In this document: one piece after another, positions 241 through 15,173 of the stretch
Layout of the letters: every line of letters starts with the position of its first letter
Position numbering within the stretch: the stretch's first letter is position 1
IMG/VR virus record: IMGVR_UViG_3300020220_000330
Coordinates: 1 to 24,037 of that record
From: a virus
Strand: one strand, 5' to 3'
Length of the DNA: 24,037 nt
The notes under the pieces: model-generated
Seen by the model: only the letters and a program-made list of their open reading frames with translations
Told to the model about the DNA's origin: nothing
Database searches by the model: none
Position numbers and translations under genes: made by a program

Positions 241-247
241 ATAAATA
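241..247 (+). promoter_or_regulatory. T4-type late promoter ATAAATA, 5 nt before ATG 253
   Basis: ATAAATA matches 7 of 8 positions of the T4 late -10 element TATAAATA; the preceding base is C. The gap to the start codon at 253 is 5 nt (TCTGT), the same gap as at 2708, 4164, 5762 and 13656. T4 late transcripts start a few bases after this element, so the mRNA would begin at or very near the AUG. There is no Shine-Dalgarno in the gap. Confidence 0.7.
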
Positions 248-252
248 TCTGT

Positions 253-1383
253 ATGGCAAATAAATTTACAAGATTTTTAACTGGCCAAGGCGGTAGCAGC
301 TCTGTGGGCAGATTTTTAAGCGGAGTTGCAGGCGGACTAACGAATCCTAAAGGAGGACTTGCCGACTGGCGACATGCATCTAGACTGTTTTTAGATAACA
401 GTTATAGATTGACACCTCGTACGAAATTCCTTTATTACGTGCGATTTGAAATAGATAAGTCTATATTGTCATCCCCGATATTTTCTAATAAACATGCAGA
501 TGAAATAGGATATCTGATCAAGACTACAGATCTTCCAAAATTTAAATTTGAAACCGTCACAAAAAATCAATACAATAGAAAAAAAATCTTTTATAAAAAT
601 TTTACATATGAAGGTATAAACATGACCTTCCATGATGATAGTGCCGGTGTAATCAATGCCTTGTGGGCATTGTATATGGGTGCTTATGTCCAAGATCGGC
701 ATAATCCAGAAAGAGCGTTTTTTAAGACGGCCCTGCGGCCAGAAGGATCCGTGGTCGACAGTTATAGATATGGTCTAGATCGAGCAGGAAGGTCTACTGA
801 TTTTTTCACATCTATCAGCATCTATACTATGAGTCGCAGGAGATTTCTCGGATATACCCTGATCAATCCTAAAGTTACTAATTGGGGTCATGGTAGCATG
901 GATTATACAGCAAATGATTTCAATGAAACTTCCATGGGCATAGAATATGAATCAGTTATCTACAGCAGCGGAAATGTTTCTAGAAACAATCCCAAAGGAT
1001 TTGCAAATCTTTATTACGATAATGTTCCAAGTCCGCTTACAGTCGCAGGCGGTGGGGTATCGACTCTATTAGGCGAAGGTGGAGTATTAGATGGCCTAGA
1101 ACAGGTATTCGGAGATGTTGCCGGCGGTTCTGCGTTCGGGTCAGTCGGAGGATTTTTAGGTACTGCTATCAAGGCCATTAATACCGCGAAGAATTTTAAA
1201 AGCCTTAGCAAAGAAGGATTGAAACAAGAGGCTATCAATATCTTAAGTAATCCTGCTACGGTAAGAGGAACCATCAATACAGTAGGCGGTATCGTAGGTG
1301 CGGCGTTTCCAAAAAATTCAGGCACTGCCACCGGTACAACTGCCACACAAAAGAGATTGGTTAACCCCGCAGATGATCGATAA
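253..1383 (+). CDS. tail-tube-type baseplate protein (gp48/gp54-like)
   Basis: A 376-residue protein, probably part of the baseplate-tail tube junction. The N-terminal 55 residues are Gly-rich. A tail-tube-like core follows from about residue 60 to 250: a YYVRFEID strand, then a TDLPKFKFET segment, NQYNRKK, and a HDD turn before LWALYMG, a pattern found in tube proteins of T4-like phages. The core ends near YESVIYSSG. The last 120 residues are Gly/Ala-rich with helical segments, resembling the C-terminal tail of T4 gp54. Its length is close to T4 gp48 (364) and gp54 (320). The start at 253 follows a late promoter by 5 nt and has no Shine-Dalgarno. It lies next to another tube-type protein and upstream of gp4. 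The structural role is fairly safe; the exact T4 counterpart is not. Confidence 0.6.
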   Translation: MANKFTRFLTGQGGSSSVGRFLSGVAGGLTNPKGGLADWRHASRLFLDNSYRLTPRTKFLYYVRFEIDKSILSSPIFSNKHADEIGYLIKTTDLPKFKFETVTKNQYNRKKIFYKNFTYEGINMTFHDDSAGVINALWALYMGAYVQDRHNPERAFFKTALRPEGSVVDSYRYGLDRAGRSTDFFTSISIYTMSRRRFLGYTLINPKVTNWGHGSMDYTANDFNETSMGIEYESVIYSSGNVSRNNPKGFANLYYDNVPSPLTVAGGGVSTLLGEGGVLDGLEQVFGDVAGGSAFGSVGGFLGTAIKAINTAKNFKSLSKEGLKQEAINILSNPATVRGTINTVGGIVGAAFPKNSGTATGTTATQKRLVNPADDR

Positions 1384-1400
1384 CCTATACGGAGACTAGG

Positions 1401-1772
1401 ATGGCCTTAACTAATTTGCCCTTCAAGCGTGACGAGGACAGTGCTTCTGCTACCAAAGCGTTTTTCAACACCTACGGTAATCTAGAGTTAGAATTCACGG
1501 CCAACGAAGTTTCGGCAGCCATAGGATTTTTCCAAAGTCGCGGGTTCAACGATGATGCCAGCATCGTCACTGCTCAGGTACTGCTACGACAGGCTAAAAT
1601 AGACGGAGTTCCAGTATTTAAATTAATAGATACTTTGAAAACATTCAATGGTGTTCAGATCAGCGCCATCGTGGCAGAAATATTAAACAATAATAGAAGC
1701 GCGACCAGTGTGCTTGGCTACAAGATAACTTCAGTCGAAAAACAAAATCAAACTAGGAATATCTTTGCCTAA
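1401..1772 (+). CDS. small conserved phage structural protein, function unknown
   Basis: A 123-residue protein I recall as a conserved neighbour of gene 4 in cyanomyophage-like genomes, usually called a virion structural or hypothetical protein. The middle (residues 35-95) reads as three helices, with AAIGFFQSRGF, a QVLLRQAKIDGV segment and QISAIVAEILNNNR. The C-terminal SVLGYK is probably a conserved ending. No catalytic motif or membrane segment is visible. A Shine-Dalgarno (GGAG at 1391-1394) precedes the ATG, so it is probably translated from the mRNA that starts at the upstream late promoter. Its stop codon shares one base with the start of gp4 (TAATG), which suggests translational coupling and a shared role in head or neck assembly. 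Function is not known to me. Confidence 0.65.
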   Translation: MALTNLPFKRDEDSASATKAFFNTYGNLELEFTANEVSAAIGFFQSRGFNDDASIVTAQVLLRQAKIDGVPVFKLIDTLKTFNGVQISAIVAEILNNNRSATSVLGYKITSVEKQNQTRNIFA

Positions 1773-2212
1773 TGGTTAAATTTGCGCAGGGACGTTTTGA
1801 AATGAAAAATCCCGACAAGTATGTGGGAAAGAAAACTCCATTGGCTAGATCTAGTTGGGAATTCGTTTTCATGCGTATGTTAGACGAACATCCAGGAGTA
1901 GAAAACTGGGCGTCGGAAAGCATACAGATACCTTACAGAGATCCTCTAACTGGAAAATATACTATCTATGTGCCAGATTTTTTTATCGTTTACAAAGACA
2001 AAGGCGGAAAAAAACATGCAGAAGTTGTCGAGGTAAAACCCAGCAATCAGATGATCTTGGAAAAAGTCGGTAAGAGTCTGTATAATCAAGAACAGTATGT
2101 GAAAAATATAGCGAAATGGGAAGCCGCTAGCAAATGGTGCCAGCAGCAGAATGTTAGATTCCGGATCATCAACGAAGACGACATTTTCCATCAAGGCGGA
2201 AAACGTAGATAA
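1772..2212 (+). CDS. 4: head completion protein gp4 (T4 gene 4/50 family)
   Basis: A 146-residue homologue of T4 gp4 (150 aa), the protein needed to finish filled heads before tail joining. It shows a PD-(D/E)xK nuclease-like layout of the TnsA type: E30 in SSWEF, D69 in YVPDF, and E87-V-K89 in VVEVKP. All three presumed metal/catalytic positions are present, so nuclease-type activity remains possible. In T4 this protein is linked to trimming or protecting DNA ends in the head; that is family knowledge and not shown here. The gene overlaps the stop of the upstream gene by one base, and gp16 starts 8 nt after its stop, so packaging genes are contiguous. The identification rests on length, motif order and position. 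Confidence 0.88.
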   Translation: MVKFAQGRFEMKNPDKYVGKKTPLARSSWEFVFMRMLDEHPGVENWASESIQIPYRDPLTGKYTIYVPDFFIVYKDKGGKKHAEVVEVKPSNQMILEKVGKSLYNQEQYVKNIAKWEAASKWCQQQNVRFRIINEDDIFHQGGKRR

Positions 2213-2219
2213 GTACACT

Positions 2220-2699
2220 ATGACCAAAAAACTAGAAGAATTATTGAATCTCGAACGATCTGCAGTCAACAAAGAAGATCCGCTGAAGCCTGTCAAAGAA
2301 CATCAGGAAGTACGCAGCCTAGATGACAGTTATCAGGCTGTGGCAGAAATAACCAAAGGTCTTCCTCAGATCAAAGAACTAGACGAACTGGACGATAAAG
2401 AACTAGATAATCTAGCCAGCAAAGCAGAACAGGCCTATGACGACCTAATGGATCTAGGCATGAATGTGGAAGTACGATATAGCGGCCGTATTTTTGAGGT
2501 CGCTGGCTCGATGCTTAAAAACGCCATAGATGCCAAGAGCGCTAAGATCGAGAAAAAACTAAAAGCAGTAGATTTACAGTTGAAAAAATATAAGATAGAT
2601 AAAGATTCCAATGAAGATCTTAACGATGTGATCAACGGGCAAGGTTACATCATCACCGACCGGAATGAACTGTTGAAAAAACTAGGCAACAAGGAATAA
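2220..2699 (+). CDS. 16: terminase small subunit gp16
   Basis: A 159-residue small terminase, the DNA-recognition and regulatory partner of gp17 in headful packaging. It is mostly charged helix: residues 1-15 (TKKLEELLNLE), a DDSYQAVAEI segment at about 36-45 like the DDYGVVRRN region of T4 gp16, and a central helical region (LGMNVEVRYSGRIFEVAGSM, then KNAIDAKSAK) that probably forms the oligomerising coiled coil. T4 gp16 is 164 aa. An upstream in-frame ATG at 2151 lies inside gp4, so I chose the ATG at 2220, 8 nt after the gp4 stop. A degenerate ATAAGTA lies 4 nt before this start, with no clear Shine-Dalgarno. The late promoter for the next gene overlaps its last codons (2696-2702). Confidence 0.85.
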   Translation: MTKKLEELLNLERSAVNKEDPLKPVKEHQEVRSLDDSYQAVAEITKGLPQIKELDELDDKELDNLASKAEQAYDDLMDLGMNVEVRYSGRIFEVAGSMLKNAIDAKSAKIEKKLKAVDLQLKKYKIDKDSNEDLNDVINGQGYIITDRNELLKKLGNKE

Positions 2700-2702
2700 A
2701 TA
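2696..2702 (+). promoter_or_regulatory. T4-type late promoter ATAAATA, 5 nt before ATG 2708
   Basis: ATAAATA overlaps the last bases of gp16 (its stop TAA is 2697-2699) and stands 5 nt (CATAT) before the ATG at 2708. An AAGGA at 2691-2695 is 12 nt from the start, too far for a normal ribosome binding site. The geometry is identical to the sites at 241, 5750 and 13644. Confidence 0.65.
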
Positions 2703-2707
2703 CATAT

Positions 2708-3274
2708 ATGAAAAGTTTCAAACAATATCTTACCGAAAACCAAAAAGTCTACAGTTTCAAAGTCAAAGTTGCTGGTGATCTCCCTGAGAAATTCCAGGAA
2801 GGTCTAAAGACTAGGCTGGATCGCTGCAAAGTTCTGACCATAGAAAAGATCACGACTACTCCTATACAAAAATTACCATTAGATTTTCCAAATATGGAAA
2901 ACAAAGAAGTGCATATTTTCGAAGTTGTTTGCGAATATCCAGTGACCGCTCCTGAAATTTCTCAAGATATTAAAAATATGGGCATCGAAGAAGGTTGTTT
3001 CCGTGTGAGAGGCAGCGGGGAACCTACAGAAGAAGATCAAGCCATGTTGGACAGTGAGATCAACAAAGAAGCATTGCTCAGCGAAACTGATTTAGATAAA
3101 AATTCAGGTAAGATCAAACACAAGGATTATTTTGGTGCTGATTTTAATAAATCATTTTTGAAAGATCTAGAAAAATCAGCCAAGGCTCGTAAGAAAGATC
3201 AGGGACAGGTCGAATACAAACTGCCCAAGGCCAAGATCGATAAAGCAGGTACAAAAAGCCCAATGGGGAGTTAA
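2708..3274 (+). CDS. putative internal capsid protein with prohead-targeting N-terminus
   Basis: A 188-residue protein of unknown function. Its first ten residues, MKSFKQYLTE, closely resemble the capsid-targeting sequence of T4 internal proteins (MKTYQEFIAE). T4 prohead protease gp21 cuts after Glu with Leu or Ile two residues earlier; L8-T9-E10 fits that rule. The next 90 residues look like a small alpha/beta domain (VYSFKVKVAGDLP, VHIFEVVCEYPV) similar in style to a ferredoxin-like fold. The remainder is charged and Lys-rich (residues 130-180), as expected of a DNA-contacting head protein. A second possible protease site, L124-S125-E126, is present. It sits between gp16 and gp17 and has its own late promoter. 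Head localisation is inference; the fold is a guess. Confidence 0.6.
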   Translation: MKSFKQYLTENQKVYSFKVKVAGDLPEKFQEGLKTRLDRCKVLTIEKITTTPIQKLPLDFPNMENKEVHIFEVVCEYPVTAPEISQDIKNMGIEEGCFRVRGSGEPTEEDQAMLDSEINKEALLSETDLDKNSGKIKHKDYFGADFNKSFLKDLEKSAKARKKDQGQVEYKLPKAKIDKAGTKSPMGS

Positions 3275-3276
3275 AT

Positions 3277-4095
3277 ATGAATTTTCATGAATTATTAGCC
3301 AAGATGCAACAGTTAGATCAGCCTGCATCTACAGTAGAACAAATAACGGACGAGATGGGCTGCGGATCTCCTATGCCGCCGGCAAACGATCCTCCCGTGG
3401 CTCCGCCTAGCATGAGCATCAATCTAAATGCGCAGGGCATGGATAACATCGAAGATCTAATGAAATTGGTCACGAAGGTCAATCCGGACATGGATAAACC
3501 TCCGATGCCGCCATTGCCTTCGATTAGTGTTGGTCCTATGGATAAACCAACCGATATGCCGCCGATGGGTATGTCACCTCTTAAATTAGGTAACCTAGAT
3601 TCGGGACCGTTAAAAATGCTACCAGACATGGATGCTGATAACGACGACAAGCCCGGTGGAGAAAAAGATAAGGGCTCACAACCAGGAGGTTTAGGGGCTA
3701 GTCTAGATCGAGACAATGACGGCGATCATGATATGGACGATCATGATATGGAAAAGAAAGATAAGGAAGAAGGCAATGCCTATGGATTGGCTGTTAAAAA
3801 TACCCCTCCTGGTGAAGAAATTAAAATCAATGGAAAAGGTACAGGAGATATTAAAAAAGGTGAAAAGGAAGAAGCATTTGGTAACTCACCGATTGGTGGT
3901 GCAGAACCGGAGTATAAGGGCATGGATGCTGCTGTCCCCGATGGCACTGATCTAAATAGACCCAAGAAAAGTTTCAGCGGTAAACCATATCGCGGTGACA
4001 ATCCTATGGCTGCCGGTGCATATGAAAGCACTGATTTACGTGCCCAGATCCGTACGGAACTACAGCGTAGATTAAACGAAGCGAAAAAATCCTAG
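3277..4095 (+). CDS. disordered acidic protein, putative virion or prohead core component
   Basis: A 272-residue low-complexity protein rich in Pro, Met, Gly, Asp and Lys, with no globular domain except short helices. These are residues 1-15 (NFHELLAKMQQL), about 58-70 (IEDLMKLVTKVNPD) and the C-terminus (DLRAQIRTELQRRLNEAK). Residues 144-155 (DRDNDGDHDMDD) resemble a calcium-binding DxDxDG loop and are followed by a duplicated DHDM unit. I recall similar proteins beside the terminase genes of cyanomyophages, where they are called structural. The start is supported by GGGGAG at 3264-3269; the gene begins 2 nt after the previous stop and is probably co-transcribed from the promoter at 2696. 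A terminator follows. No function is known to me. Confidence 0.6.
   Translation: MNFHELLAKMQQLDQPASTVEQITDEMGCGSPMPPANDPPVAPPSMSINLNAQGMDNIEDLMKLVTKVNPDMDKPPMPPLPSISVGPMDKPTDMPPMGMSPLKLGNLDSGPLKMLPDMDADNDDKPGGEKDKGSQPGGLGASLDRDNDGDHDMDDHDMEKKDKEEGNAYGLAVKNTPPGEEIKINGKGTGDIKKGEKEEAFGNSPIGGAEPEYKGMDAAVPDGTDLNRPKKSFSGKPYRGDNPMAAGAYESTDLRAQIRTELQRRLNEAKKS
3724..3753 (+). repeat. 15-nt tandem repeat, two copies, in the acidic protein gene
   Basis: Two adjacent 15-nt units, GATCATGATATGGAC and GATCATGATATGGAA, differ only in the last base and encode DHDMD and DHDME. The repeat is in frame and extends the Asp-rich loop of the 3277 gene. It looks like a local duplication. Confidence 0.8.
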
Positions 4096-4123
4096 GAAAG
4101 ATTTTATAGTCGATAGCAACCAA

Positions 4124-4148
4124 ATAGGCTCTCCGGAGCCTATTTTTT
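4124..4148 (+). terminator. Rho-independent terminator before gp17
   Basis: An 8-bp stem ATAGGCTC / GAGCCTAT (4124-4131 and 4136-4143) closes a TCCG loop, a UNCG-type tetraloop with a C-G closing pair, followed by a T run to 4148. It ends the 3277 gene's transcript and is followed directly by the gp17 late promoter at 4151. Confidence 0.88.
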
Positions 4149-4150
4149 CC

Positions 4151-4158
4151 AGTAAATA
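4151..4158 (+). promoter_or_regulatory. variant T4-type late promoter AGTAAATA, 5 nt before ATG 4164
   Basis: AGTAAATA matches TATAAATA at 6 of 8 positions and is spaced 5 nt (ACTGT) from the gp17 start, the same spacing and nearly the same spacer as TCTGT before 253. It follows a terminator by 2 nt, so gp17 needs its own promoter. No Shine-Dalgarno is present. Confidence 0.6.
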
Positions 4159-4163
4159 ACTGT

Positions 4164-5750
4164 ATGGGAAAATCATTAGACGGCGTATTGGTCAAAAAGG
4201 CCTTCGCCAAGCAAAAATATACACTAGAAGAAGTCAAACATCTAGAAGCCTGTTTAGATCCAGTAACAGGTCCTCTCTACTTCTGTAGGAATTTCCTAAA
4301 GATACAGCATCCAGTGCGTGGTGCTATCGCATTTGATCCCTACGAATACCAGGTTAATCTAATCAATGCCTATCAAGAACACAAGCAAACCATAGCGATG
4401 TTACCAAGGCAGTCAGGAAAGACGACCTGCGCTACCGGATATCTCCTCTGGTATACTATGTTCGTTCCTGAATGCCAAGTGTTGATCGCTGCGCACAAAT
4501 ATGACGGTGCACAGGACATCATGAATCGTTATCGTTATGGTTATGAAAATCTGCCTGACTTTATACGAGCCGGAGTGCATAGTTATAATCGTAATACCAT
4601 TGAATACGATAATGGCAGTCGCATACAAGCGACTACCACAACAGAAACCACAGGACGCGGTAAAAGTCTTTCACTGATCTACTGCGACGAGTTCGCGTTC
4701 GTGCAGCCCCCAGAAAAAGCCAAAGAATTTTGGACCGCACTATCACCTACTCTGTCCACTGGTGGTAAATGTATCATCACTTCTACACCTAACTCGGACG
4801 AAGATCAGTTCGCACTAATCTGGACTGAAGCCAACAATCGATTCGACGAATACGGCAATGAACAGCGAGTAGGAGTCAATGGTTTTTTCAGTTATTATGC
4901 ACACTGGAGTGAGCACCCCGACCGTGATGAAGAATGGGCTCGTGTAGAACGTGCTAAAATCGGAGAGGAGCGTTTCCGTCGAGAATTTGATTGCGAATTC
5001 TTAATATTTGACGAGACTTTGATTAATTCTGTAAAATTGGCAGAACTCAAAGGAGACGACCCCACGATGACCATGGGACAAACTCGTTGGTACAAAGACA
5101 TAGATCCTCGTTGCACCTACCTAGTGGCATTAGATCCCAGTCTCGGAACTGGGGGAGATTATTCGGCCATCCAGGTCTTTGAATTGCCCGCGATGGAACA
5201 GATAGCAGAATGGCATCATAATCTAACTCCTGTGCAATCACAGGCTAAACATCTCAAAGAAATCTGCAATTATATCGCTACACGAGGAAAAGAACGAGGT
5301 GGAAATCCTCAGATCTATTATTCGGTAGAAAATAACACAGTAGGAGAAAGCGCTCTTATCTGCATCAATAATATAGGGGAAGAAAATTTCGCTGGACTGT
5401 TTCTCAGCGAGCCTATACGCAAAGGCCATTTCCGTAAATTCCGCAAAGGATTTAATACCACGCACAAAACGAAAATCGCTGCCTGCAGCCAATTCAAACA
5501 TATGGTAGAAACCAGCAAGATGCGCATACACAGCAAACCCTTGATTAGCGAACTAAAAAATTATGTGGCGCACGGTATAGGGTTTGGGGCCAAGACTGGG
5601 GAGAACGACGATCTCGTGTCCAGCACACTGCTGATATTGCGCATGGCTGCGATCTTGGCCGACTGGGATCCAAAAATCTACGAAAAAATGACTGATAAAA
5701 TCTCTGAAGATCAGATGCCTATGCCTATTTTCGTCAGCACAGGTTTTTGA
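4164..5750 (+). CDS. 17: terminase large subunit gp17 (packaging ATPase and nuclease)
   Basis: A 528-residue large terminase that powers DNA translocation into the prohead and cuts the concatemer. The ATPase domain has the Walker A box PRQSGKTT at residues 81-88 (K86), Walker B LSLIYCDE at 169-176 (D175, E176) and coupling motif STPN at 207-210. The C-terminal RNase H-like nuclease starts at VALDPSLGTGGDYSA, with D324 as the first metal ligand. Further acidic residues lie in YYSVENN and in the GENDDLVSS segment near the end. T4 gp17 is 610 aa; this one is shorter, as in related marine phages. The start follows a late-type promoter by 5 nt. Its last codons overlap the promoter of the next gene. 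Confidence 0.96.
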   Translation: MGKSLDGVLVKKAFAKQKYTLEEVKHLEACLDPVTGPLYFCRNFLKIQHPVRGAIAFDPYEYQVNLINAYQEHKQTIAMLPRQSGKTTCATGYLLWYTMFVPECQVLIAAHKYDGAQDIMNRYRYGYENLPDFIRAGVHSYNRNTIEYDNGSRIQATTTTETTGRGKSLSLIYCDEFAFVQPPEKAKEFWTALSPTLSTGGKCIITSTPNSDEDQFALIWTEANNRFDEYGNEQRVGVNGFFSYYAHWSEHPDRDEEWARVERAKIGEERFRREFDCEFLIFDETLINSVKLAELKGDDPTMTMGQTRWYKDIDPRCTYLVALDPSLGTGGDYSAIQVFELPAMEQIAEWHHNLTPVQSQAKHLKEICNYIATRGKERGGNPQIYYSVENNTVGESALICINNIGEENFAGLFLSEPIRKGHFRKFRKGFNTTHKTKIAACSQFKHMVETSKMRIHSKPLISELKNYVAHGIGFGAKTGENDDLVSSTLLILRMAAILADWDPKIYEKMTDKISEDQMPMPIFVSTGF

Positions 5751-5756
5751 TAAATA
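5750..5756 (+). promoter_or_regulatory. T4-type late promoter ATAAATA, 5 nt before ATG 5762
   Basis: ATAAATA begins at the last base of the gp17 stop codon and stands 5 nt (CTCTT) before ATG 5762. This spacing supports 5762, and not the in-frame TTG at 5747, as the real start: the TTG would lie upstream of the promoter element. Confidence 0.7.
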
Positions 5757-5761
5757 CTCTT

Positions 5762-7951
5762 ATGAATGCTACAAATAACATAGCCACAGATCTTTTCTAC
5801 AAGGTCCGTAGCCGTTTCCGCGGGTTGAAACTTGGAGACGAGACAGGACAGTTAACCATCAATCCAGAACAAGCGAGATTCTTCGATTTTGATTACATGG
5901 AGGGTGAAACGCCTATAGGTCATGTCAGTATTAGTCTCGCAGAAGAAAATTCCATGAAAGTTTATTTCAGCACCGGAATCACGGAAAGCATGGACGGTAA
6001 GCAAAAAGATCATTGGTATGACTTTTTAAAAGAATTGCGCACATTTGCCAAACGTAGATTGATGGCGTTTGATACCAGGGATATCGCCAAAGATAATCTA
6101 GATAAAAGAGATTACGAATTCCTGAGCCAACACAACAAACCCAAAGAACAACCAAATACTATCGTACAGCCGGTCGGAGAACAAGTTATGAACGAAAGCA
6201 CACTATATGGTACCAAAACCATGAGTTACCAGAAGTTGATGGACACACGCCTCATCATCAAACACAGCCAAGCGGTAATGGACGACACACAGCCAGGCGC
6301 TAGGACACGTCATATATCTGCGCTGTTCGTAGAAAACCAAGACGGCGAAAGATTTAAATATCCGTTCATACATCTAGCAGGCGCACGAGCTATGCAGCGC
6401 CATGTGGCCAATGGTGGATTGCCCTACGATGATCTAGGTAAGAGTATCATCCAAATGAGCGAAGAAATCGCACAACTCAAGAGTTTTGGAAATTATGTTG
6501 TCCGAAATGATCTGATGAATTCAGATACCAATGGTATAGTAGAACGCAGTACACAGGCCCTAAACGACCTAAGAGAAACCATACAAAAAATAGCCAAACA
6601 AGGCCACTACGAAGCATACAAAGAAAGTTTCCAGGCCAGAGAACAAATAGAGGTTCCACAAGAAGTCGCAGAAGAATATACAGAAAAGTTCACTGTCAAA
6701 AATTTCAAAGAAGATATTAAATCAGTATTTCCTGTGATCTATCGATTGATGCAGGAAGAAAGTTCGATAGGCTATGACGACATAGTCGCGATGACACAAG
6801 AAGACATGGTCAATGACGAAGTAGATGTAGTCGAAAATGATGAAGGTAATTATTTCGATAAATTTGAAAGTTGGGTGATGGGGTTAGGCGAAGAATCCGC
6901 CATAACCTCATCCGACCAAGAAGAACAGACACAGGCAATAAAAGAACTACAAGAACTGGTAGGCGAACATTTTCCTGCAGGAGTAGACGGTTCTAACGCT
7001 ATCGAAAGTCTCAAAGGCATCATAGAAGATCCCAAATTGTATAAAGAAATCAAAGATCAGGCCAAGGAAGATCCCGACAGTTGCGTAAGACCGTTAATTA
7101 AAAATTGGCTAGAACAGAACGCACCCGAGATAGTAGATCAATTGGACTTCGGCGATATGGTCGATGAGCCGGCAGCAGACCAAGGAGGTGACCAAACTGC
7201 ACCGGAAGAAGAACCACAGATGGCCGGGGACGATCCCGACAAGAGAAACGACGACAAGGACGACCTACCGTTTGTACCCGATGAAAATCCTTCGGACAAA
7301 GACGAGTTCGGGAACACGATCAAACACAGGGCGAGACATCTAGCCAAGAAAGGCATGCGACAGGCCATGGACGTACAAGGACTGGCAGAATTTATCGGTT
7401 CATTTTATGATCGCAACACAGGCACATTCCCCAAAGGTCCAGAAGGTGTTGTAGTAATGGTAGGCAAGAAGTTTGGCGAAGAAGCCGAACAGGTGGCTCG
7501 CAAATTTGTTGAAAGAATGGCTCCACATCAGGAAGCGGGTGCAGAAGAATTAGCAGAACTAGGCCGTATGAGAGAGTTAGCAGGTGTGCAACAAGAAGGA
7601 GATCGTATTAGAGATATCAGTCCAGAAGACGACGAGGACGATGAAGAACCTGCAGAACGACATTATGCTTTTGATTTGGGCAATAGACTATTCGCAGAGA
7701 ATCCAAATCTCAGCGTGAAACGCGGAGGAGATGAAGTGGTCGATGCAGCCTATGAGATCATGGTCAAAGAATTAGGCAAGAAGAGAGCCGACTATATTCT
7801 AAGATATGATGAAGATTTTGTCGGAGATTTACTTGATATGTATTCTCGAGCACAGCATAGCAGTAAGTCAAAAGGAGAAGCAGTTGAACCTATCCCTGAA
7901 TTGGAAGACATCCGCAGATTATCAGGCATAGCACAAGGCCTAGGCTACTAA
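5762..7951 (+). CDS. large conserved phage protein, putative virion structural protein
   Basis: A 729-residue protein from ATG 5762 (a TTG at 5747 would add five residues but precedes the late promoter). I recall similar proteins following gp17 in cyanomyophage-type genomes, annotated as structural or hypothetical. Residues 1-120 form an alpha/beta region. The segment around RTRHISALFVENQDG, then HLAGARAMQRHVA, looks like the conserved core. The middle is helical and charged. A disordered acidic linker (about 475-530: DPDKRNDDKDD and nearby) separates a C-terminal part. There two short look-alike motifs occur, MRELAGV at 603-609 and IRRLSGI at 717-723, each preceded by an acidic stretch. No enzyme motif is visible. 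A strong terminator follows. Function is unknown; a virion role is inferred from context. Confidence 0.65.
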   Translation: MNATNNIATDLFYKVRSRFRGLKLGDETGQLTINPEQARFFDFDYMEGETPIGHVSISLAEENSMKVYFSTGITESMDGKQKDHWYDFLKELRTFAKRRLMAFDTRDIAKDNLDKRDYEFLSQHNKPKEQPNTIVQPVGEQVMNESTLYGTKTMSYQKLMDTRLIIKHSQAVMDDTQPGARTRHISALFVENQDGERFKYPFIHLAGARAMQRHVANGGLPYDDLGKSIIQMSEEIAQLKSFGNYVVRNDLMNSDTNGIVERSTQALNDLRETIQKIAKQGHYEAYKESFQAREQIEVPQEVAEEYTEKFTVKNFKEDIKSVFPVIYRLMQEESSIGYDDIVAMTQEDMVNDEVDVVENDEGNYFDKFESWVMGLGEESAITSSDQEEQTQAIKELQELVGEHFPAGVDGSNAIESLKGIIEDPKLYKEIKDQAKEDPDSCVRPLIKNWLEQNAPEIVDQLDFGDMVDEPAADQGGDQTAPEEEPQMAGDDPDKRNDDKDDLPFVPDENPSDKDEFGNTIKHRARHLAKKGMRQAMDVQGLAEFIGSFYDRNTGTFPKGPEGVVVMVGKKFGEEAEQVARKFVERMAPHQEAGAEELAELGRMRELAGVQQEGDRIRDISPEDDEDDEEPAERHYAFDLGNRLFAENPNLSVKRGGDEVVDAAYEIMVKELGKKRADYILRYDEDFVGDLLDMYSRAQHSSKSKGEAVEPIPELEDIRRLSGIAQGLGY

Positions 7952-8269: not shown

Positions 8270-8280
8270 TATGAGCGATC

Positions 8281-8310: not shown

Positions 8311-8333
8311 GGCAAAAATTTCTCAAAAAGATC

Positions 8334-8362: not shown

Positions 8363-8374
8363 ATGTTTTATGCG
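8355..8374. repeat. perfect inverted repeat overlapping the gp32 promoter -10
   Basis: CGCATAA (8355-8361) and TTATGCG (8368-8374) are perfect complements with a six-base spacer, and the left arm covers most of the -10 box. The arrangement fits a protein operator; it is not followed by a T run. Confidence 0.6.
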
Positions 8375-8418
8375 CAAGGCATACATTTTAAGGCAAATTA
8401 CAAAGGAGGCAATTTAAA

Positions 8419-9384: not shown

Positions 9385-9396
9385 TTGCTAAACTAA

Positions 9397-9424
9397 AAAA
9401 TGTGGGACTAAGGTCCCACATTTT
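9397..9424. terminator. bidirectional hairpin terminator between gp32 and uvsX
   Basis: A 12-bp perfect stem AAAATGTGGGAC / GTCCCACATTTT with a TAAG loop is present. The A and T tracts allow termination in either direction. With no promoter visible before uvsX at 9445, uvsX may depend on read-through of this hairpin. Confidence 0.85.
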
Positions 9425-9444
9425 CATCAACATAGGACGACATA

Positions 9445-10524
9445 ATGGCAAAAGCATTTGATATAAGCAAGTTTCGAAAAAGTATTACTAAGAGCATCGA
9501 AGGACTCAGCATCGGTTTCAATGATCCCACAGATTGGGTCTCGACAGGAAACTATGCTCTGAACTATCTGATCAGCGGTGACTTCCATCGCGGAGTTCCA
9601 CTGGGCAAAGTCACGGTATTCGCAGGTGAAAGTGGTGCAGGCAAATCCTACATCTGTGCCGGCAACTTGATCAAGGCCGCACAGGCGCAGAATATCTATC
9701 CTATCTTGATCGATTCAGAAAATGCCTTAGATGAAGATTGGCTCAAAGCACTGGACGTTGATACCGCAGAAGATAAACTGCTGAAACTCAACATGGCCAT
9801 GATCGATGATGTGGCCAAAACCATCACAGAATTTGTCGCAGAATACAAGGCCATGCCCGAAGACGGTCGTCCAAAGATCTTGTTCGTGCTGGACAGCCTA
9901 GGCATGTTACTGACTCCCACAGATGTCAATCAATTTGAAGCAGGTGATCTGAAAGGTGATCTGGGTCGCAAAGCCAAAAGTCTCACCGCACTTGTGCGAA
10001 ACTGCGTGAACATGTTTGGTAGCCTTAACATTGGCCTAGTTGCTACTAACCACACATACGCTAGCCAAGACATGTTTGACCCCGATGACAAGATCTCAGG
10101 TGGACAAGGTTTCATCTATGCCTCATCTATCGTCGTGGCGATGAAGAAACTCAAGCTCAAAGAGGATGAAGATGGCAATAAGATTTCAGAAGTCAAAGGT
10201 ATCCGTGCTGCCTGCAAGATCATGAAGACACGCTATGCCAAACCCTTTGAATCGGTACAGGTCAAGATCCCCTACGAAACTGGCATGAATCCTTACAGTG
10301 GTCTTGTCGATCTCTCTGAAGCCAAAGGCATATTGGTAAAAGATGGTAACAGACTGTCCTATACGACACCGGATGGGGAAATCCTTAAGTTCTATCGCAA
10401 AGAATGGGAACGCAACGAAAATGGTTGTCTCGATCAATTGATGATAAATTTTTCTAAAGCCACAGAAAATACATCATCTGAGATAACTAATAATGTTGAA
10501 CCCCAACCGGAGAGCGTGGAATGA
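9445..10524 (+). CDS. uvsX: UvsX RecA-like recombinase
   Basis: A 359-residue strand-exchange recombinase of the RecA/UvsX family (T4 UvsX 391 aa). The Walker A box is GESGAGKSY at residues 61-69 (K67), Walker B ILFVLDSLG at about 144-152. The DNA-binding loop region includes DLKGDLGRKAKSL, and IGLVATNHTY is the usual strand ending in the glutamine/histidine sensor region. The N-terminal cap is short, and the C-terminus is Asn/Glu-rich. It works with gp32 and UvsY, both encoded next to it. The start at 9445 follows TAGGAC at 9434-9439. It overlaps the next gene by 4 nt (ATGA), so the three downstream genes are probably coupled. Confidence 0.95.
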   Translation: MAKAFDISKFRKSITKSIEGLSIGFNDPTDWVSTGNYALNYLISGDFHRGVPLGKVTVFAGESGAGKSYICAGNLIKAAQAQNIYPILIDSENALDEDWLKALDVDTAEDKLLKLNMAMIDDVAKTITEFVAEYKAMPEDGRPKILFVLDSLGMLLTPTDVNQFEAGDLKGDLGRKAKSLTALVRNCVNMFGSLNIGLVATNHTYASQDMFDPDDKISGGQGFIYASSIVVAMKKLKLKEDEDGNKISEVKGIRAACKIMKTRYAKPFESVQVKIPYETGMNPYSGLVDLSEAKGILVKDGNRLSYTTPDGEILKFYRKEWERNENGCLDQLMINFSKATENTSSEITNNVEPQPESVE

Positions 10525-10757
10525 AAGAAGATTTAATCGCAGATATTTGGACACTGGTCGTAGAACATATCCCTGAAAAATCTAGAGCCGACGTAGCATC
10601 TGGATTCGTAAACACTCTATTAGACTATGGAATCAAAGAATCTACACTGCAGAGCCTATTAGGAATAGATGACCATCTAGACGAAGCCATCGACTATGCT
10701 ATCGATGACGAAGAGATCGAAGAAGAATATGAAGATTACACCGACGATGAGGAATAA
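10521..10757 (+). CDS. small acidic protein between uvsX and uvsY, function unknown
   Basis: A 78-residue protein with a helical N-terminal half (residues 1-52, including IWTLVVEHIPEKSRADVASG and TLLDYGI) and a very acidic tail, 13 Asp/Glu among the last 18 residues (IDDEEIEEEYEDYTDDEE). I recall small acidic proteins in this position after uvsX in cyanomyophages, but no function. It overlaps uvsX by 4 nt and abuts uvsY, so all three should be made together. The acidic tail could mimic DNA or contact gp32/UvsX; that is inference only. GGAGAG before the start serves as the ribosome site. Confidence 0.7.
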   Translation: MKEDLIADIWTLVVEHIPEKSRADVASGFVNTLLDYGIKESTLQSLLGIDDHLDEAIDYAIDDEEIEEEYEDYTDDEE

Positions 10758-11213
10758 ATGAATTGGTATGATCGAGTTTCAAAGGATATTTCAAACATAC
10801 CAGATGCTGTGGCATATTATGAAAGCGAACTGCTAGAAGCAAAAAAAGATGCCCGCATAGCGGGAAACATCGAACGAGCATCGGCTGCTATGCCAGGCAT
10901 CGTAGAAAACCGATTCAATCAACTCCAAGAGATCGAAGCCATATTAGAATATCTCAACATCGAACTGCGCAGACTGCGCAGCCAGCATTTTCGCAAATAT
11001 CTTGAAAATTATCAACGAAGCCTAAGTTCTAGAGACTGTGAAAAGTTTGTAGAAGGCGAAGCCGATGTTGTTGATTTTGAAAAGATTATCAATGATTTTG
11101 CTCTATTAAGAAATAAATGGCTAGGCATCATCAAAGGCCTAGACATCAAACAATGGCAGTTATCCAACATTGTTAAATTACGAACTGCCGGATTAGAAGA
11201 TGCTACTCTATGA
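10758..11213 (+). CDS. uvsY: UvsY recombination mediator
   Basis: A 151-residue homologue of T4 UvsY (137 aa), the mediator that loads UvsX onto gp32-coated ssDNA. It is all helical with many charges: the N-terminal region binds DNA in T4, and here ESELLEAKKDAR and ENRFNQLQEIEAILEYLN form the central helices, followed by LRRLRSQHFRKYLE. The last part (RNKWLGIIKGLDIKQWQLSNI) matches the conserved UvsY ending. The start follows GAGG at 10749-10752 by 5 nt, immediately after the upstream stop. The stop overlaps the next gene (ATGA), tying the sugar epimerase to the recombination operon. Confidence 0.9.
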   Translation: MNWYDRVSKDISNIPDAVAYYESELLEAKKDARIAGNIERASAAMPGIVENRFNQLQEIEAILEYLNIELRRLRSQHFRKYLENYQRSLSSRDCEKFVEGEADVVDFEKIINDFALLRNKWLGIIKGLDIKQWQLSNIVKLRTAGLEDATL

Positions 11214-12184
11214 ATGTACTAGTAACAGGCGGGTTAGGTTTAATTGGTCATAATGTAATTAAAAAATTAGAGGGAATCGGCTATGACGTTATTATTACCG
11301 ACACTAGAACTAATTACGGTATAATCCCTCAACTAGAGATAGATTATCTTATCTCAGAAAGATTAAAATTTATTCGGTCAGAAAAAATACACAGAATTGA
11401 CATCAGCGATCGAGATAATGTCGAATGGTTGTTTAGAAATTATCATCCAGATGCTGTCATACATTTGGCTAGTTTCCCTAGACAGAAAGTTGTTAATTCT
11501 GACCCTGCGCTCGGTGCTAGGGTAATGAGTGAAGGATTACTTAATCTATTAGAATCATGTTTAAAATTTTGTTGTTACAGATTTTTATATACTAGCAGCA
11601 GTATGGTCTACGGTGACTTCAAAAACTATGTCACCGAAGATGCAGAATGTCGACCACAAGGGCAATACGGTATACTCAAACTGGCTGGAGAATGGTTAAT
11701 CCGCGATTATCAAAGGCGAGGTATAGATTATACTATATTTCGTCCCAGTGCTGTATATGGTCCTTTAGATGTCGAAGACCGTGTAATTTCTAAATTCTTA
11801 CTAACTGCTATGAGGGGCGGTGTTCTTAAAGTCAACGGTGTTAATGAAACGCTAGATTTTACCTATGTCGACGATGCGGCCAATGGAATCGTGCAAGCCC
11901 TTCTATCGGAAAATACAAAAAATAAAACCTACAATATTACGAAAAGTCACAGTAAAACTTTGTATGAAGCAGCCCAATTGGCTGTTAAATTAGTAGGAAA
12001 AGGAACTATCGAACTTCGAGATAAAGATGCAGATTTTCCTAGTCGTGGTGCGTTAGATATCGATGCAGCACGTAGAGACTTTGGGTTTAATCCAATTGTA
12101 GATATAGAAGAAGGATTTGAACGTTATTACCATTGGCTCAAAAATAGTGAATATTACTCAAAAAATCCTAACCATAGGATTTAA
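11210..12184 (+). CDS. NAD-dependent sugar epimerase/dehydratase (extended SDR)
   Basis: A 324-residue extended short-chain dehydrogenase, probably acting on a nucleotide sugar. The Rossmann NAD-binding motif is GGLGLIG at residues 7-13. The catalytic set is complete: Ser in YTSSSMVYG (128-134), Y153 and K157 in YGILK. RPSAVYGP is the usual substrate-loop motif. UDP-glucose 4-epimerase-type proteins are the nearest match by eye, but the substrate cannot be read. It starts by a 4-nt overlap with uvsY, so it may be expressed with the recombination genes. Its last 27 nt overlap the convergent glycosyltransferase gene and contain a terminator hairpin. Confidence 0.88.
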   Translation: MNVLVTGGLGLIGHNVIKKLEGIGYDVIITDTRTNYGIIPQLEIDYLISERLKFIRSEKIHRIDISDRDNVEWLFRNYHPDAVIHLASFPRQKVVNSDPALGARVMSEGLLNLLESCLKFCCYRFLYTSSSMVYGDFKNYVTEDAECRPQGQYGILKLAGEWLIRDYQRRGIDYTIFRPSAVYGPLDVEDRVISKFLLTAMRGGVLKVNGVNETLDFTYVDDAANGIVQALLSENTKNKTYNITKSHSKTLYEAAQLAVKLVGKGTIELRDKDADFPSRGALDIDAARRDFGFNPIVDIEEGFERYYHWLKNSEYYSKNPNHRI

Positions 12185-12883
12185 TTTTATGTCCCATAAT
12201 TTTTGATCTTGCCATTTGTATATGCCATACGGTAAAAATTTTTGTTCTAACTGATGTTGAAAAAACATCTTATCAAATATAAAACTTTCTAATTTTAATT
12301 TTTCCTGTCGTCTATTACAATCAAACAGCGCATCGAGATTATATGGAAGTTTTAATGTACGAAAAAAATCTAAATCGGTTGATTGTATAATAGAAATTAA
12401 GTCAGTTCTATTTTGTAATAAAGCAACACCAAAACTCCAATGATCACGCTTAAATGTTCTATAAAAATCTAATGAAAATCCATCTAATTTATTTTCTAAA
12501 AAATAATTTTCAGATAAAATTATTTTTGATTTAATTAAATCTATATCAAATGTTATAAACATTGTGTCGTCAGCATCGATTAACCAAAAAGGATCATTAC
12601 CGCTTTTTTCATAACACGACAAATTTGATGCTGCAACATTTTTCCATCTTTTTGATTCTAATAAATGATCAATAGGTGCAGATAATGCGTAATTAGAATT
12701 TATAAATTGAAATGAGGAATAATTTATAAAATGTTTCGGAAACTTTAAAGTAGGATCAAACATATCACAGATAATATAGATGTTTCTATCTGCAAAAATA
12801 TCTAACCAAAAATTTAAACACTGGATTGACGACGGATTCTCTTTAGGATCTTTGTTATACTTTAGGAAAATATTTTTTATCAT
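12158..12883 (-). CDS. putative glycosyltransferase, GT-A type
   Basis: A 241-residue protein probably transferring a sugar. The only clear motif is the metal/nucleotide-sugar site DADD (D103, D105, D106) in FWLIDADDTMF, the usual GT-A DxD after a beta-strand. It differs from the four related glycosyltransferases elsewhere in this window and I do not recognise its family. The gene is very AT-rich (12481-12540 has 6 G/C of 60), unlike the core genes, which suggests recent transfer. It overlaps the upstream - gene by 4 nt, so both come from one transcript starting near 13620. Its end overlaps the epimerase. Acceptor and sugar are unknown. Confidence 0.65.
   Translation of the reverse strand: MIKNIFLKYNKDPKENPSSIQCLNFWLDIFADRNIYIICDMFDPTLKFPKHFINYSSFQFINSNYALSAPIDHLLESKRWKNVAASNLSCYEKSGNDPFWLIDADDTMFITFDIDLIKSKIILSENYFLENKLDGFSLDFYRTFKRDHWSFGVALLQNRTDLISIIQSTDLDFFRTLKLPYNLDALFDCNRRQEKLKLESFIFDKMFFQHQLEQKFLPYGIYKWQDQKLWDIKLNPMVRIF
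12159..12182. terminator. bidirectional terminator inside the overlap of two convergent genes
   Basis: AAATCCTA / TAGGATTT (12163-12170 and 12175-12182) is a perfect 8-bp stem with an ACCA loop. On - it is followed by a T run (AAAAAA on +, 12159-12164); on + by TAATTTT. It lies in the last codons of both the epimerase and the - glycosyltransferase. Confidence 0.75.
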
Positions 12884-13614
12884 AATTTGCCTCTAAATTT
12901 TCTATGTTTGCTGAAACCAGTATGTTTACTTTTTTTACTGATCCAATGATCAAAATATTCTCCAATTTCGCCAACGGCGATTGGATCTATAAACGAACTG
13001 TATTTTCCTGATAAATTTTTAAAAGATAATAAGGAGTTTAATCTAACATGATCAAATGCTCCGCAATCACACCACGAATCTAGTTCAAACAATTGGTCTT
13101 TATTATACAAATTAATAAAAGTTTCAAAGAAATTTTCTGCACCCGGATCAGATAGATCGTATAAGATAAATCCAGTTTCGGTTAATAAGGTGTCTCTGCC
13201 AATATAACCGCAAAAATGATTATCTAACATATTAGCCGCAACATTACTATCAAATGATTTTAATGCTGCAACATCTGCATCTAAAAACAAAAGATATCTA
13301 GTATCGGCGATTTTAAATGATTCGTATTGCGCATAAACTTTATGACAGTAAGTGTCCCACTTTCTACCAACCGGGTGTATAATTTTAGTACCTTGTCTGC
13401 CAATTCTGGTGTTTCTTTCTAGAAAATCTAATTTTTCTTTTGTATCTAAAAAATAAGTTATTCGTCGGTCGATTATTGGTTCAAATTCTGTATGAAAATG
13501 AAATTTAATTCCTGGATCAAAATATCGAAACCAGGTTGGTATTGATCTATTACCGTAATGTTCCCAAAGATCTTTAGTAAATGTAGATACTACTGTTAGA
13601 CTATTATTGCTCAT
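12880..13614 (-). CDS. putative glycosyltransferase, GT-A type (family shared with 20684 and 21384)
   Basis: A 244-residue GT-A-like protein. It has an N-terminal VVSTFTKDLWEHYG strand-helix like those of the 20684 and 21384 proteins, the site LFLDADVAAL (D112, D114), then TETGFILYDL and the WCDCGAFDHVR segment, which corresponds to WNDCWVFDEVR in the 21384 protein. These shared blocks make it a paralogue of both. It is the first gene of a two-gene - operon. TTAAATA stands 6 nt before the start, with no Shine-Dalgarno, in a divergent arrangement with 13656. The sugar it transfers is not evident. Confidence 0.72.
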   Translation of the reverse strand: MSNNSLTVVSTFTKDLWEHYGNRSIPTWFRYFDPGIKFHFHTEFEPIIDRRITYFLDTKEKLDFLERNTRIGRQGTKIIHPVGRKWDTYCHKVYAQYESFKIADTRYLLFLDADVAALKSFDSNVAANMLDNHFCGYIGRDTLLTETGFILYDLSDPGAENFFETFINLYNKDQLFELDSWCDCGAFDHVRLNSLLSFKNLSGKYSSFIDPIAVGEIGEYFDHWISKKSKHTGFSKHRKFRGKL

Positions 13615-13620
13615 AGAAAC

Positions 13621-13627
13621 TATTTAA
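13621..13627 (-). promoter_or_regulatory. late-type promoter TTAAATA on the minus strand, 6 nt before ATG 13614
   Basis: Read on -, TTAAATA matches the last seven bases of the late element at 6 of 7 positions. Six bases (GTTTCT) separate it from the start. It is back-to-back with the + element at 13644, 16 nt away. Confidence 0.5.
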
Positions 13628-13643
13628 CCAATTAAATGCGTAC

Positions 13644-13650
13644 ATAAATA
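13644..13650 (+). promoter_or_regulatory. T4-type late promoter ATAAATA, 5 nt before ATG 13656
   Basis: ATAAATA with spacer TTGAT is exactly 5 nt before the start of the large sugar operon. There is no Shine-Dalgarno. It is the only obvious + promoter for the nine coupled genes from 13656 to 21400. Confidence 0.7.
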
Positions 13651-13655
13651 TTGAT

Positions 13656-15173
13656 ATGAATTTACACATTATTGTTCAGGCCGGTGGCCGTGGTAGTCGT
13701 TTGAGACACCATACATGGAATAAACCAAAATGTTTAGTTAGTGTTCGAGGAAAACCGTTGTTATATCATTTGTTTGATCGATTTCCAACAGCACATTTTC
13801 ATATCATTGGTGACTATGCTTATGATCAGCTTGAAAAATATCTACAAGTGAATACCCCGTCAGTTAATTATACCTTAATTCAAACCGACGAAAAAGGAAC
13901 TGCTAGCGGCATTGGTGATGCTCTTAAAGCTGTTCCTAACGATGCTGAACTTATAATTACTTGGAGCGATTTAATTATTGGTAGGATGCCGTCTATTGTA
14001 GATTCATCCTTACCTACTGTTATCACGACAAATGCATTCACCTGTCGATGGACTCAGAACGATGCAGGTGCATTGATAGAACAACCAGGACCAAATGGTA
14101 TCCCTGGAATCTTTCATGTTAGACGTGCTGAGTATTTTCCGGAGCCGCCCACAAGCGGAGAATTTGTAAAATGGTTCAGTAAGAATATAACACAGTTCAA
14201 CACAGTAGTATGCAACGACTTAGAAGAATTAGGCGACTTTTCAACTATCGAAACACAAAACGATCGAGCAGGGTTTAGTAGATTTTTCAATGAGGTAAAA
14301 ATTAACGAATCTACTGTCGAAAAACGTGCAATTAATTCTGACTATCTACATTTGATAGGTAAAGAACAGGATTGGTATAAGAGTGTTAGTGATCTAGGAT
14401 TTCGTAGAATTCCAAAGATTATTTCAATAGATCCGTATGTCATGACTAAAATTAATGGAAATCATGCATATCAAATGTTAAATCTTACTGAACGAGAAAA
14501 ACGTGCGGTGCTGGCTGACTATTTAGATTCACTAACGTCCTTGCACGACCTATCTACTAGACCAGTAATTAGCGAAGATGTTGTTGATACTTATATTACA
14601 AAAACATTAAATCGTGTTAATAGTGTTTCAAAAATAATTCCTAATTTTGATCAAGACTCTATTACGGTAAATGGATTAAAATGTAAAAATGTATTTGCAG
14701 AAAAGTACAAACATTTATTTGAGACTATTCTTACGACTATTCAACCGTCGATATTTACACCAATACACGGCGATCCAACATTTAGTAACAGTCTTATAGA
14801 TAAAAATTTAAAAGTATGGTACATCGATCCGCGAGGATATTTTAGCAAACCAGGAATATGGGGAGATCCAATGTACGACTTTGCTAAAGTATATTATAGT
14901 GCAGTTGGGGGTTATGATATGTTTAATCGTAGAAAGTTTAAACTTCATATAGATAGAGAAACTGTAGAAATTTTACAAGAATCAACGAGATTTGAAATAT
15001 ATGCTGAGGAAATTTTTACTGAGTATTTTGGTAACAAAATTGCTAAGATTAAAATATTACATGGGCTAATTTGGTTATCCTTAAGCGGTTATGCAAAAGA
15101 CGATATTGATAGCGTCATTGGTAGTTTCTATCTTGGATTGCATTATCTTGAACAGGGATTGCAAGAGTTATGA
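13656..15173 (+). CDS. sugar nucleotidyltransferase fused to an APH-type small-molecule kinase
   Basis: A 505-residue two-domain enzyme. Residues 1-220 are a sugar-1-phosphate nucleotidyltransferase: AGGRGSRL at 9-16 and KPKCLV at 23-28 are the nucleotide-binding signature, and ITWSDL holds the likely metal Asp. Residues 245-505 look like an aminoglycoside/choline kinase-type domain, with the Brenner loop HGDPTFSN (H371, D373, N378) and a metal-site strand YIDPRGYF (D391). This suggests one protein phosphorylates and then activates a sugar or a small polar group. The order (kinase plus nucleotidyltransferase, next a HAD phosphatase) is common in capsule clusters. It leads the operon and overlaps the next gene by 4 nt. 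The substrate is unknown. Confidence 0.82.
   Translation: MNLHIIVQAGGRGSRLRHHTWNKPKCLVSVRGKPLLYHLFDRFPTAHFHIIGDYAYDQLEKYLQVNTPSVNYTLIQTDEKGTASGIGDALKAVPNDAELIITWSDLIIGRMPSIVDSSLPTVITTNAFTCRWTQNDAGALIEQPGPNGIPGIFHVRRAEYFPEPPTSGEFVKWFSKNITQFNTVVCNDLEELGDFSTIETQNDRAGFSRFFNEVKINESTVEKRAINSDYLHLIGKEQDWYKSVSDLGFRRIPKIISIDPYVMTKINGNHAYQMLNLTEREKRAVLADYLDSLTSLHDLSTRPVISEDVVDTYITKTLNRVNSVSKIIPNFDQDSITVNGLKCKNVFAEKYKHLFETILTTIQPSIFTPIHGDPTFSNSLIDKNLKVWYIDPRGYFSKPGIWGDPMYDFAKVYYSAVGGYDMFNRRKFKLHIDRETVEILQESTRFEIYAEEIFTEYFGNKIAKIKILHGLIWLSLSGYAKDDIDSVIGSFYLGLHYLEQGLQEL

Follow-up and report, generated by a model that had tools for sequence, protein, structure and literature searches.

Late promoters fused to start codons suggest leaderless mRNAs in phages of the T4 superfamily

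Introduction

Where does a messenger RNA begin when its promoter ends five nucleotides (nt) before the start codon? The question is raised by the virus record IMGVR_UViG_3300020220_000330, analysed over its 24,037 bases and called the window below, in which (A/G)TAAATA stands at exactly this distance from the ATG of five genes. The motif has the same core as the late promoter box of phage T4 (TATAAATA at -13 to -6, served by gp55, gp33 and gp45), and relatives of the window encode the gp55 family. Judging from the sequence comparisons reported here, we consider it highly probable that these phages make, besides leadered mRNAs, leaderless ones transcribed from late promoters of the gp55 type that are fused to start codons. 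A promoter is called fused here when its box lies 4-8 nt from the start codon.

Both leaderless genes and T4 late promoters have been described before, and phage phiKZ reportedly makes leaderless transcripts. We found no report of the combination, which is weak evidence since subscription journals were thinly covered. Leaderless mRNAs are described as favouring an AUG that is 5'-terminal or nearly so. According to PMC3160421, the share of leaderless genes reaches about 20% in Actinobacteria and about 40% in Deinococcus-Thermus, and TA-like signals some 10-12 bp upstream mark them in bacteria. The paper on phage AR9 states that phage transcripts are often leaderless, yet AR9 leaders measure 26-491 nt. 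The comparisons with known systems draw on PMC2984593, PMC9004378, PMC3121705, PMC5259590, PMC5312081, PMC2988020, PMC7892883, PMC3037559, PMC9031893, PMC3160421 and PMC9723584.

Results and Discussion

Late promoters adjoining start codons in the window

The five sites listed by an earlier, sequence-only reading of the window were all recovered: on the plus strand, TAAATA starts at 242, 2697, 4153, 5751 and 13645 and ends exactly 5 nt before the ATG at 253, 2708, 4164, 5762 and 13656. The complete elements, with gene annotations from PHROGs, are ATAAATA-TCTGT-ATG (241..255) at the tail tube gene (coding sequence 253-1383), ATAAATA-CATAT-ATG (2696..2710) at a virion structural gene (2708-3274), GTAAATA-ACTGT-ATG (4152..4166) at the gene of the terminase large subunit (TerL, 4164-5750), ATAAATA-CTCTT-ATG (5750..5764) at another virion structural gene (5762-7951) and ATAAATA-TTGAT-ATG (13644..13658) at a gene whose PHROG is of unknown function (13656-15173). 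Several fused genes are thus virion genes, as are T4 late genes. The count of five was incomplete: a sixth fused promoter had been overlooked on the minus strand (13612..13626), where the TAAATA at 13626 is separated by a 6-nt spacer from the ATG of gene 12880..13614, which has no PHROG match. The five plus-strand starts open frames of 188-729 amino acids, and their number compares with 0.69 TAAATA-N5-ATG matches expected (standard deviation 0.85, maximum 4), none of 100 dinucleotide shuffles reaching 5.

None of these five starts has a properly spaced GGAG, as had been claimed, and of the other starts that had been named as carrying a Shine-Dalgarno (SD) site seven were inspected, six having GGAG and one (10758) GAGG. 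Real starts further downstream, with ribosome sites of their own, were looked for within 50 codons of the five, where no later in-frame ATG is preceded by an SD; only codon 35 of 13656, a TTG, offers an alternative start with an SD. Directly before two of the promoters, plus-strand hairpins followed by T-runs resemble intrinsic terminators, in support of those proposed earlier: one at 205..236, before the promoter of 253 (fold -18.8 kcal/mol, z -3.36), the other at 4122..4150, before that of 4164 (-16 kcal/mol, z -3.81). Both are absent from the list of a consensus terminator scan.

Conservation of the spacing in related loci

The distance between box and ATG was then counted in 80 related loci (1.17 Mb, best 80 of 596). 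These window-clade loci are redundant and cover the structural region, and some of them are contained in G002 and G006, two of the environmental records discussed below, whose counts are thus not independent of the 80 loci. Raw counts gave 328 occurrences at 5 nt and 0-22 at each other distance from 0 to 30 nt. As unique contexts, 174 were at 5 nt, 209 at 4-8 nt, 3 at 9-15 nt, 38 at 16-30 nt and 36 at 31 nt, the latter combining leadered promoters of the tail sheath with a match that lies in coding sequence. A flat distribution had been named beforehand as the outcome contrary to the proposal; a sharp 5-nt peak is present in the 80 loci, in the environmental record G007, which is more distant, and likewise in HTVC008M, a cultured phage; record G008 shows a cluster at 4-7 nt rather than a peak. 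The proposed fixed geometry of promoter and ATG holds in that 5 nt dominates most sets, and has to be loosened in that 4-8 nt occurs across relatives. A chance origin of the pattern is ruled out by the shuffles, the distance peak and the permutation controls given below.

Among orthologous starts the letters of the spacer vary while its length is kept. It measures 5 nt in 29 of 36 tail tube starts (4 nt in five, 6 nt in one, no box in one), 63 of 68 orthologues of 2708 (8 nt in three, 7 nt in two), 66 of 79 TerL starts (4 nt in nine, 6 nt in two, no box in two), 77 of 80 orthologues of 5762 (4 nt in three) and the single orthologous start of 13656 found among the 80 loci. SD-like sites are missing at three of the four best-sampled genes (tail tube 0/36, TerL 1/79, 5762 0/80). 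They are found in 62/62 orthologues of gene 3277 and in 67/67 of ssb, and within 40 nt of these starts TAAATA occurs only at 0-2 nt from 3277, in 5 of 62.

The exception is gene 2708. Its promoter is abutted on the upstream side by AAGGA, about 12 nt from the ATG, and 38 of 68 orthologues have an SD-like tetramer upstream of the promoter. The AAGGA would fall outside a transcript made from the fused promoter, and a readthrough RNA could be SD-led. Readthrough from upstream is possible for this gene, and one may ask whether the promoters, although real, contribute only a minor leaderless transcript, translation proceeding mainly from longer readthrough mRNAs with upstream SD-like sites. With such sites nearly absent at TerL, 5762 and the tail tube gene, and with terminator hairpins preceding 253 and 4164, we judge this unlikely for the fused genes as a group.

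Initiator base, start codon and box letters

The presumed initiation region was examined in 164 unique contexts with 5-nt spacing. The base before ATG is T in 143 and C in 21, never A or G, which places a pyrimidine/A step at the presumed +1 in 164/164. A -1 pyrimidine followed by a purine at +1 is a common preference of bacterial polymerases. Of the start codons found 5 nt from the box, 164 are ATG, 3 TTG, 1 CTG and none GTG. When any ATG is counted, a pyrimidine stands at -1 in 79/85 pattern matches of G001-G006 (G005 and G006 share many of them), compared with 4/10 in T4 and 9/15 in PA5oct.

A T4 late-gene review numbers the first two letters of the box -13/-12, and a cryo-EM paper mentions an adenine at -12 of the T4 late promoter. 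On this numbering the box would end at -6, and +1 would be the sixth base after it, that is the A of the ATG. The sixth base is A in 63% of 27 leadered, SD-led late promoters of T4, 69% of 13 in S-PM2 and 62% of 47 in GAP32. The letter before TAAATA is A in 52% and G in 25% of the 164 contexts, TAAATA itself being fixed by the selection of the set. The CBB paper reports ATAAATA with A/T-rich sequence downstream.

A variant was noticed at the TerL promoter, where TAAGTA replaces TAAATA in 21 loci (including L289, L302 and L313), 5 nt from the ATG in 20 and 8 nt in one. A genome-wide switch of promoter to TAAGTA in a sister lineage was considered and rejected, 15 of its 18 unique 5-nt contexts (T at -1 in 17, C in 1) being the TerL start. 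Because it is mostly confined to TerL and TAAATA sites persist in those loci, TAAGTA appears to be a variant box and not a switch of specificity.

Distribution of fused promoters among phages

To which phages does the arrangement extend? Counts of TAAATA at 4-8, 9-15 and 16-40 nt from an ATG were 28, 3 and 55 in G002, 44, 4 and 51 in G006, 40, 3 and 83 in G007, 14, 0 and 37 in G008, and 16, 3 and 22 in HTVC008M. The G records are environmental; these counts, like those that follow for the other phages, were made on records joined from 20-kb blocks. Counts at exactly 5 nt were 14, 18, 14, 4 and 12, respectively. Unlike the window clade, T4 (5, 11, 49), S-PM2 (1, 4, 41), ViI (0, 2, 31), PA5oct (4, 15, 74) and GAP32 (1, 4, 67) have the box mostly 16-40 nt from the ATG and no 5-nt peak; the counts for Melnitz are 4, 6 and 34. 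As a control, 15 permutations of the hexamer letters were compared at spacings of 4-7 nt with a pyrimidine (Y) at -1. TAAATA ranked first in G002 (22 genes), G006 (35), G007 (32), G008 (10) and HTVC008M (12), and was not enriched over the permutations in T4, S-PM2, ViI, PA5oct, GAP32 and Melnitz.

All nine TAAATA-N5-ATG matches in the first 50 kb of HTVC008M are gene starts annotated by the depositors, and 60 HTVC008M-like loci, its own record included, gave 65 unique contexts at 5 nt. Loci retrieved with the PA5oct terminase (best 80 of 600) gave 75 at 5 nt and a second rise of 43 at 7 nt; an Agrobacterium phage terminase query returned 4 loci only. There is no clear case among seven other cultured records and ten more that were compared, Melnitz, F356 and Atu_ph07 being borderline. 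N5 matches against a reversed control were 3/2 in Phosso, 15/9 in Atu_ph07, 6/11 in 121Q, 0/0 in phiM12, 2/2 in KVP40, 0/1 in RM378 and 0/0 in phiW-14; with Y at -1 they were 5/2 in Melnitz, 7/2 in Campylobacter F356, 18/10 in Lak-B9, 2/0 in AG-345-F15 and 2/0 in SRB7757, and at or near the control in Syn10, ACG-2014f, VS1, Sf-CH8 and P-SSM2. The T4 matches at 113,273 and 113,422 fall inside uvsW. The Melnitz paper counts 15 late promoters and reports a gp45-like clamp; the distance to the start codon is undiscussed in the passages concerned.

Fused sigma-70-type promoters and the host

One runner-up permutation, ATAATA (11 genes in G006, 15 in G007), reflects TATAAT -10 boxes, many of them with TTGACA upstream. 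TATAAT lies 5-8 nt before the ATG at 8 starts in G002, 13 in G006 and 15 in G007, mostly at 6 nt or an adjoining distance, and a -35 element with 5-6 of 6 matches to TTGACA accompanies 4/8, 8/13 and 6/15 of them, with 16-18 nt between TTGACA and TATAAT. The same count elsewhere gave 0/2 in T4, 0/1 in S-PM2, 0/3 in ViI, 0/8 in GAP32, 1/8 in PA5oct, 1/2 in Melnitz, 1/3 in HTVC008M and 1/4 in G008. There is no TATAAT peak in the 80 window-clade loci (3 contexts at 6 nt), the HTVC008M-like set (0) or the PA5oct-query set (6). Early-type promoters thus look leaderless too in the three long records G002, G006 and G007. The earlier equation of fused with late promoters applies to the TAAATA cases and is too narrow for these three records, where TTGACA/TATAAT promoters are fused as well.

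The TA-led leaderless genes of Actinobacteria and Deinococcus-Thermus (PMC3160421) likewise have a -10 element about 10-12 bp upstream, no SD and a start expected at the ATG. There the box is the host's -10 box and the genes are cellular; here it is mostly a phage late-sigma box, before phage genes. The fused TATAAT promoters of G002, G006 and G007 match the bacterial kind directly.

Is the arrangement, then, an ordinary adaptation to hosts rich in leaderless genes? Such an adaptation is compatible with the proposed mechanism and would lower only its surprise. The frequency of leaderless genes in the two bacterial groups speaks for it, and it gains in likelihood from the fused TTGACA/TATAAT promoters: with sigma-70-type promoters fused as well in G002, G006 and G007, translation of leaderless mRNAs must be within the host's ability before late transcription sets in. 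An assignment of the host from one sugar gene of the window led nowhere, its 80 nearest cellular relatives kept being 48-61% identical and spanning many phyla. Against it stand the late-box peak of HTVC008M, whose host Pelagibacter is an alphaproteobacterium, and the GGAG or GAGG at the seven other window starts checked. We regard host habit as a possible, rather doubtful explanation.

Divergent promoter pairs

The minus-strand gene 12880..13614 and gene 13656 (plus strand) are divergent, with 41 bp between their start codons. Such back-to-back fused pairs, with start codons 24-56 bp apart, number 2 in G002, 3 in G006, 2 in G007 and 1 each in G008, HTVC008M and the window; none was found in T4, S-PM2, ViI, PA5oct, GAP32 and Melnitz. 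As unique contexts there are 8 in the window clade (one being a G006 pair), 14 among HTVC008M-like loci (that of HTVC008M included) and 3 in the PA5oct-query set. The HTVC008M pair consists, in the depositors' annotation, of a DNA end protector gene (18392..18916, minus strand) and a head closure gene (18943..19440, plus strand). The gap is 26 bp, 12 of them taken up by the two boxes, so that neither mRNA would fit a leader with a normally spaced SD, if both are transcribed from promoters in the gap. Divergent pairs are the strongest structural argument for leaderlessness, and rest on the start calls of others.

Two side observations concern such pairs. At G006:261111-261136, divergent start codons 24 bp apart share the palindrome TATTTATAAATA, in effect one bidirectional promoter box. 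A second divergent pair of the window (23632, minus strand; 23670, plus strand) has its TAAATA boxes at distances of 22 and 21 nt from the ATGs; no SD is visible, and the leaders would be short and devoid of ribosome sites.

The pairs also bear on whether TAAATA is a promoter at all. It might instead be an A/U-rich translation element, contacted for example by bS1, in transcripts that start far upstream. A/U-rich leaders aid SD-less initiation, TAAATA sits where a ribosome would see it, and most fused window genes stand in a same-strand row in which readthrough is possible. Yet TAAATA matches the T4 late box in all but the outer T and recurs 16-40 nt before SD-led genes; the runner-up permutations are mostly overlapping offsets of it (ATAAAT, AAATAT) or, as ATAATA, TATAAT promoters; terminator hairpins precede 253 and 4164; and the divergent pairs need two promoters within 24-56 bp. 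A translation element would also leave unexplained the pyrimidine at -1, the A at +1 and the fused TTGACA/TATAAT promoters. We consider it very improbable.

Proposed mechanism

We infer the transcription start, the dependence on gp55 and the mode of translation as follows. RNA polymerase carrying the phage late sigma factor would recognise (A/G)TAAATA at about -12 to -6 and start RNA 5-6 nt beyond the box, at the pyrimidine/A step that coincides with the ATG. The first gene would then have a leaderless mRNA (pppAUG...), translated without SD, probably by initiation on its 5'-terminal AUG, and downstream genes of the operon would use ordinary SD sites. The earlier proposal of leaderless mRNAs gains support from the pyrimidine at -1 and A at +1, the near-exclusive use of ATG, the lack of SD at most of the starts sampled and the divergent pairs. 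Leadered late promoters would coexist with the fused ones, 16-40 nt upstream of SD-led genes; in the window, a contrasting TAAATA at 23215..23220 (minus strand) is separated from gene 22205-23188 by 26 nt with an SD-like GAGG. The scarcity of boxes at 9-15 nt may mean that a leader of this length exceeds what leaderless initiation tolerates and falls short of what SD initiation needs. Some sigma-70-type promoters being fused likewise, leaderlessness would be a habit of the phage and not of one promoter class. Extending this, host-sigma and phage late-sigma promoters may both be fused in a two-class leaderless programme serving early and late genes, the distance (4-8 or 16-40 nt) selecting the mode of translation; we put forward this extension tentatively, its chances being slightly less than even.

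Evolution, late sigma factor and bS21

A terminase tree built quickly from 108 rows (reduced from 173 by removing near-copies), in which long branches leave the deep joins unsure, has 81 fused rows (67 with TAAATA at spacings 4-8, 14 with TAAGTA). The state changes at least 11 times, 8 of the changes being forced by well-supported branches; the fragment row L012 was scored as not fused solely because its start is cut off. PA5oct, not fused, stands beside a fused row (support 97). HTVC008M, which has no fused promoter at its terminase gene, is placed with S-PM2 (99) in a part of the tree remote from the window. Repeated gain or loss of the fused state is probable, and its occurrence in HTVC008M looks independent of that in the jumbo phages.

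Members of the gp55 family (phrog_234) are encoded by 7/11 environmental relatives (G002, G004, G005, G006, G007, G009 and G011) and by 8/8 cultured records searched; four possible fragments, G001, G003, G008 and G010, gave no match. The ribosomal protein bS21 is encoded by G002, G006, G007, G008 and HTVC008M. A strict link between bS21 and fusion was rejected, because PA5oct and Melnitz have bS21 without a peak and no bS21 match was obtained in G004 and G005 (16 and 12 N5 matches), which may be fragments. That a phage bS21 retunes the ribosome for leaderless messages seems to us very improbable: the idea is weakened by PA5oct and Melnitz and by the fusion of sigma-70 promoters. The bS21-encoding freshwater phages of PMC9723584 are, like the fused records sharing this gene, aquatic and large; that paper concerns Bacteroidetes phages, and the word "leaderless" does not occur in it. 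Only GAP32 and 121Q (2/16), neither of which has fused promoters, gave phage IF3 domains, too few to conclude from.

Points that weigh against the proposal

Several results weigh against leaderless transcripts from late promoters, besides the tetramers upstream of 2708. Only 9 gene families among 338 proteins stand at exactly 5 nt in the 80 loci, so that the evidence from these loci is nine genes seen many times, to which the whole records are added. S-PM2, ViI and GAP32 show a dip at 9-15 nt too (4, 2 and 4), so that the dip alone is no proof of two classes. In HTVC008M the permutations ATAAAT (10) and TATAAA (9), which overlap TATAAATA, come near TAAATA (12), and 11/65 HTVC008M-like contexts have a purine at -1. 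Conservation does not extend to the outermost T of the T4 box (T 0.19, A 0.42). At the sixth base downstream of the box, A stands in just 46% of 13 leadered promoters in ViI and in 45% of 51 in the leadered set of the window clade, many of which lie in coding sequence. No gp55 was found in the 24,037-base window itself. Finally, since there are few virion matches among the fused genes of G006, the label "late" leans on the box more than on what the genes encode.

On this last point, 20 of the 35 fused genes of G006 were searched, a sample that left out four orthologues of window virion genes: 11 have no PHROG match and 2 have clear virion matches. Among its leadered SD-led genes (16 of 28 searched), 4 have no match and about 9 are virion genes, tail sheath included. 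This comparison (2/20 fused, about 9/16 leadered) does not support the view that fusion marks the main virion genes, the tail sheath being leadered and the tail tube fused.

Genomic context of the window

Neighbouring genes (UvsX, UvsY, a single-stranded DNA-binding protein and head closure, from PHROGs) together with the terminase assign the window to the T4 superfamily; the nearest terminase among the phage records searched is that of PA5oct and its kin (52.5%). Genes of a sugar-nucleotide/heptose pathway occupy 11210-12184 and 15170-23188: two epimerase-like genes, a phosphoheptose isomerase, a heptose kinase/adenylyltransferase and a methyltransferase (PHROGs).

Implications

In these widespread uncultured aquatic phages, and in a cultured Pelagibacter phage, a single spacing would tie the start of transcription to the mode of translation. 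As HTVC008M is in culture, the proposal is directly testable. The distance between box and ATG may help in practice to decide where genes start in such genomes, which would also be genomes in which to study the leaderless translation of essential virion genes. The arrangement raises the question of what the phage-borne ribosomal proteins act upon.

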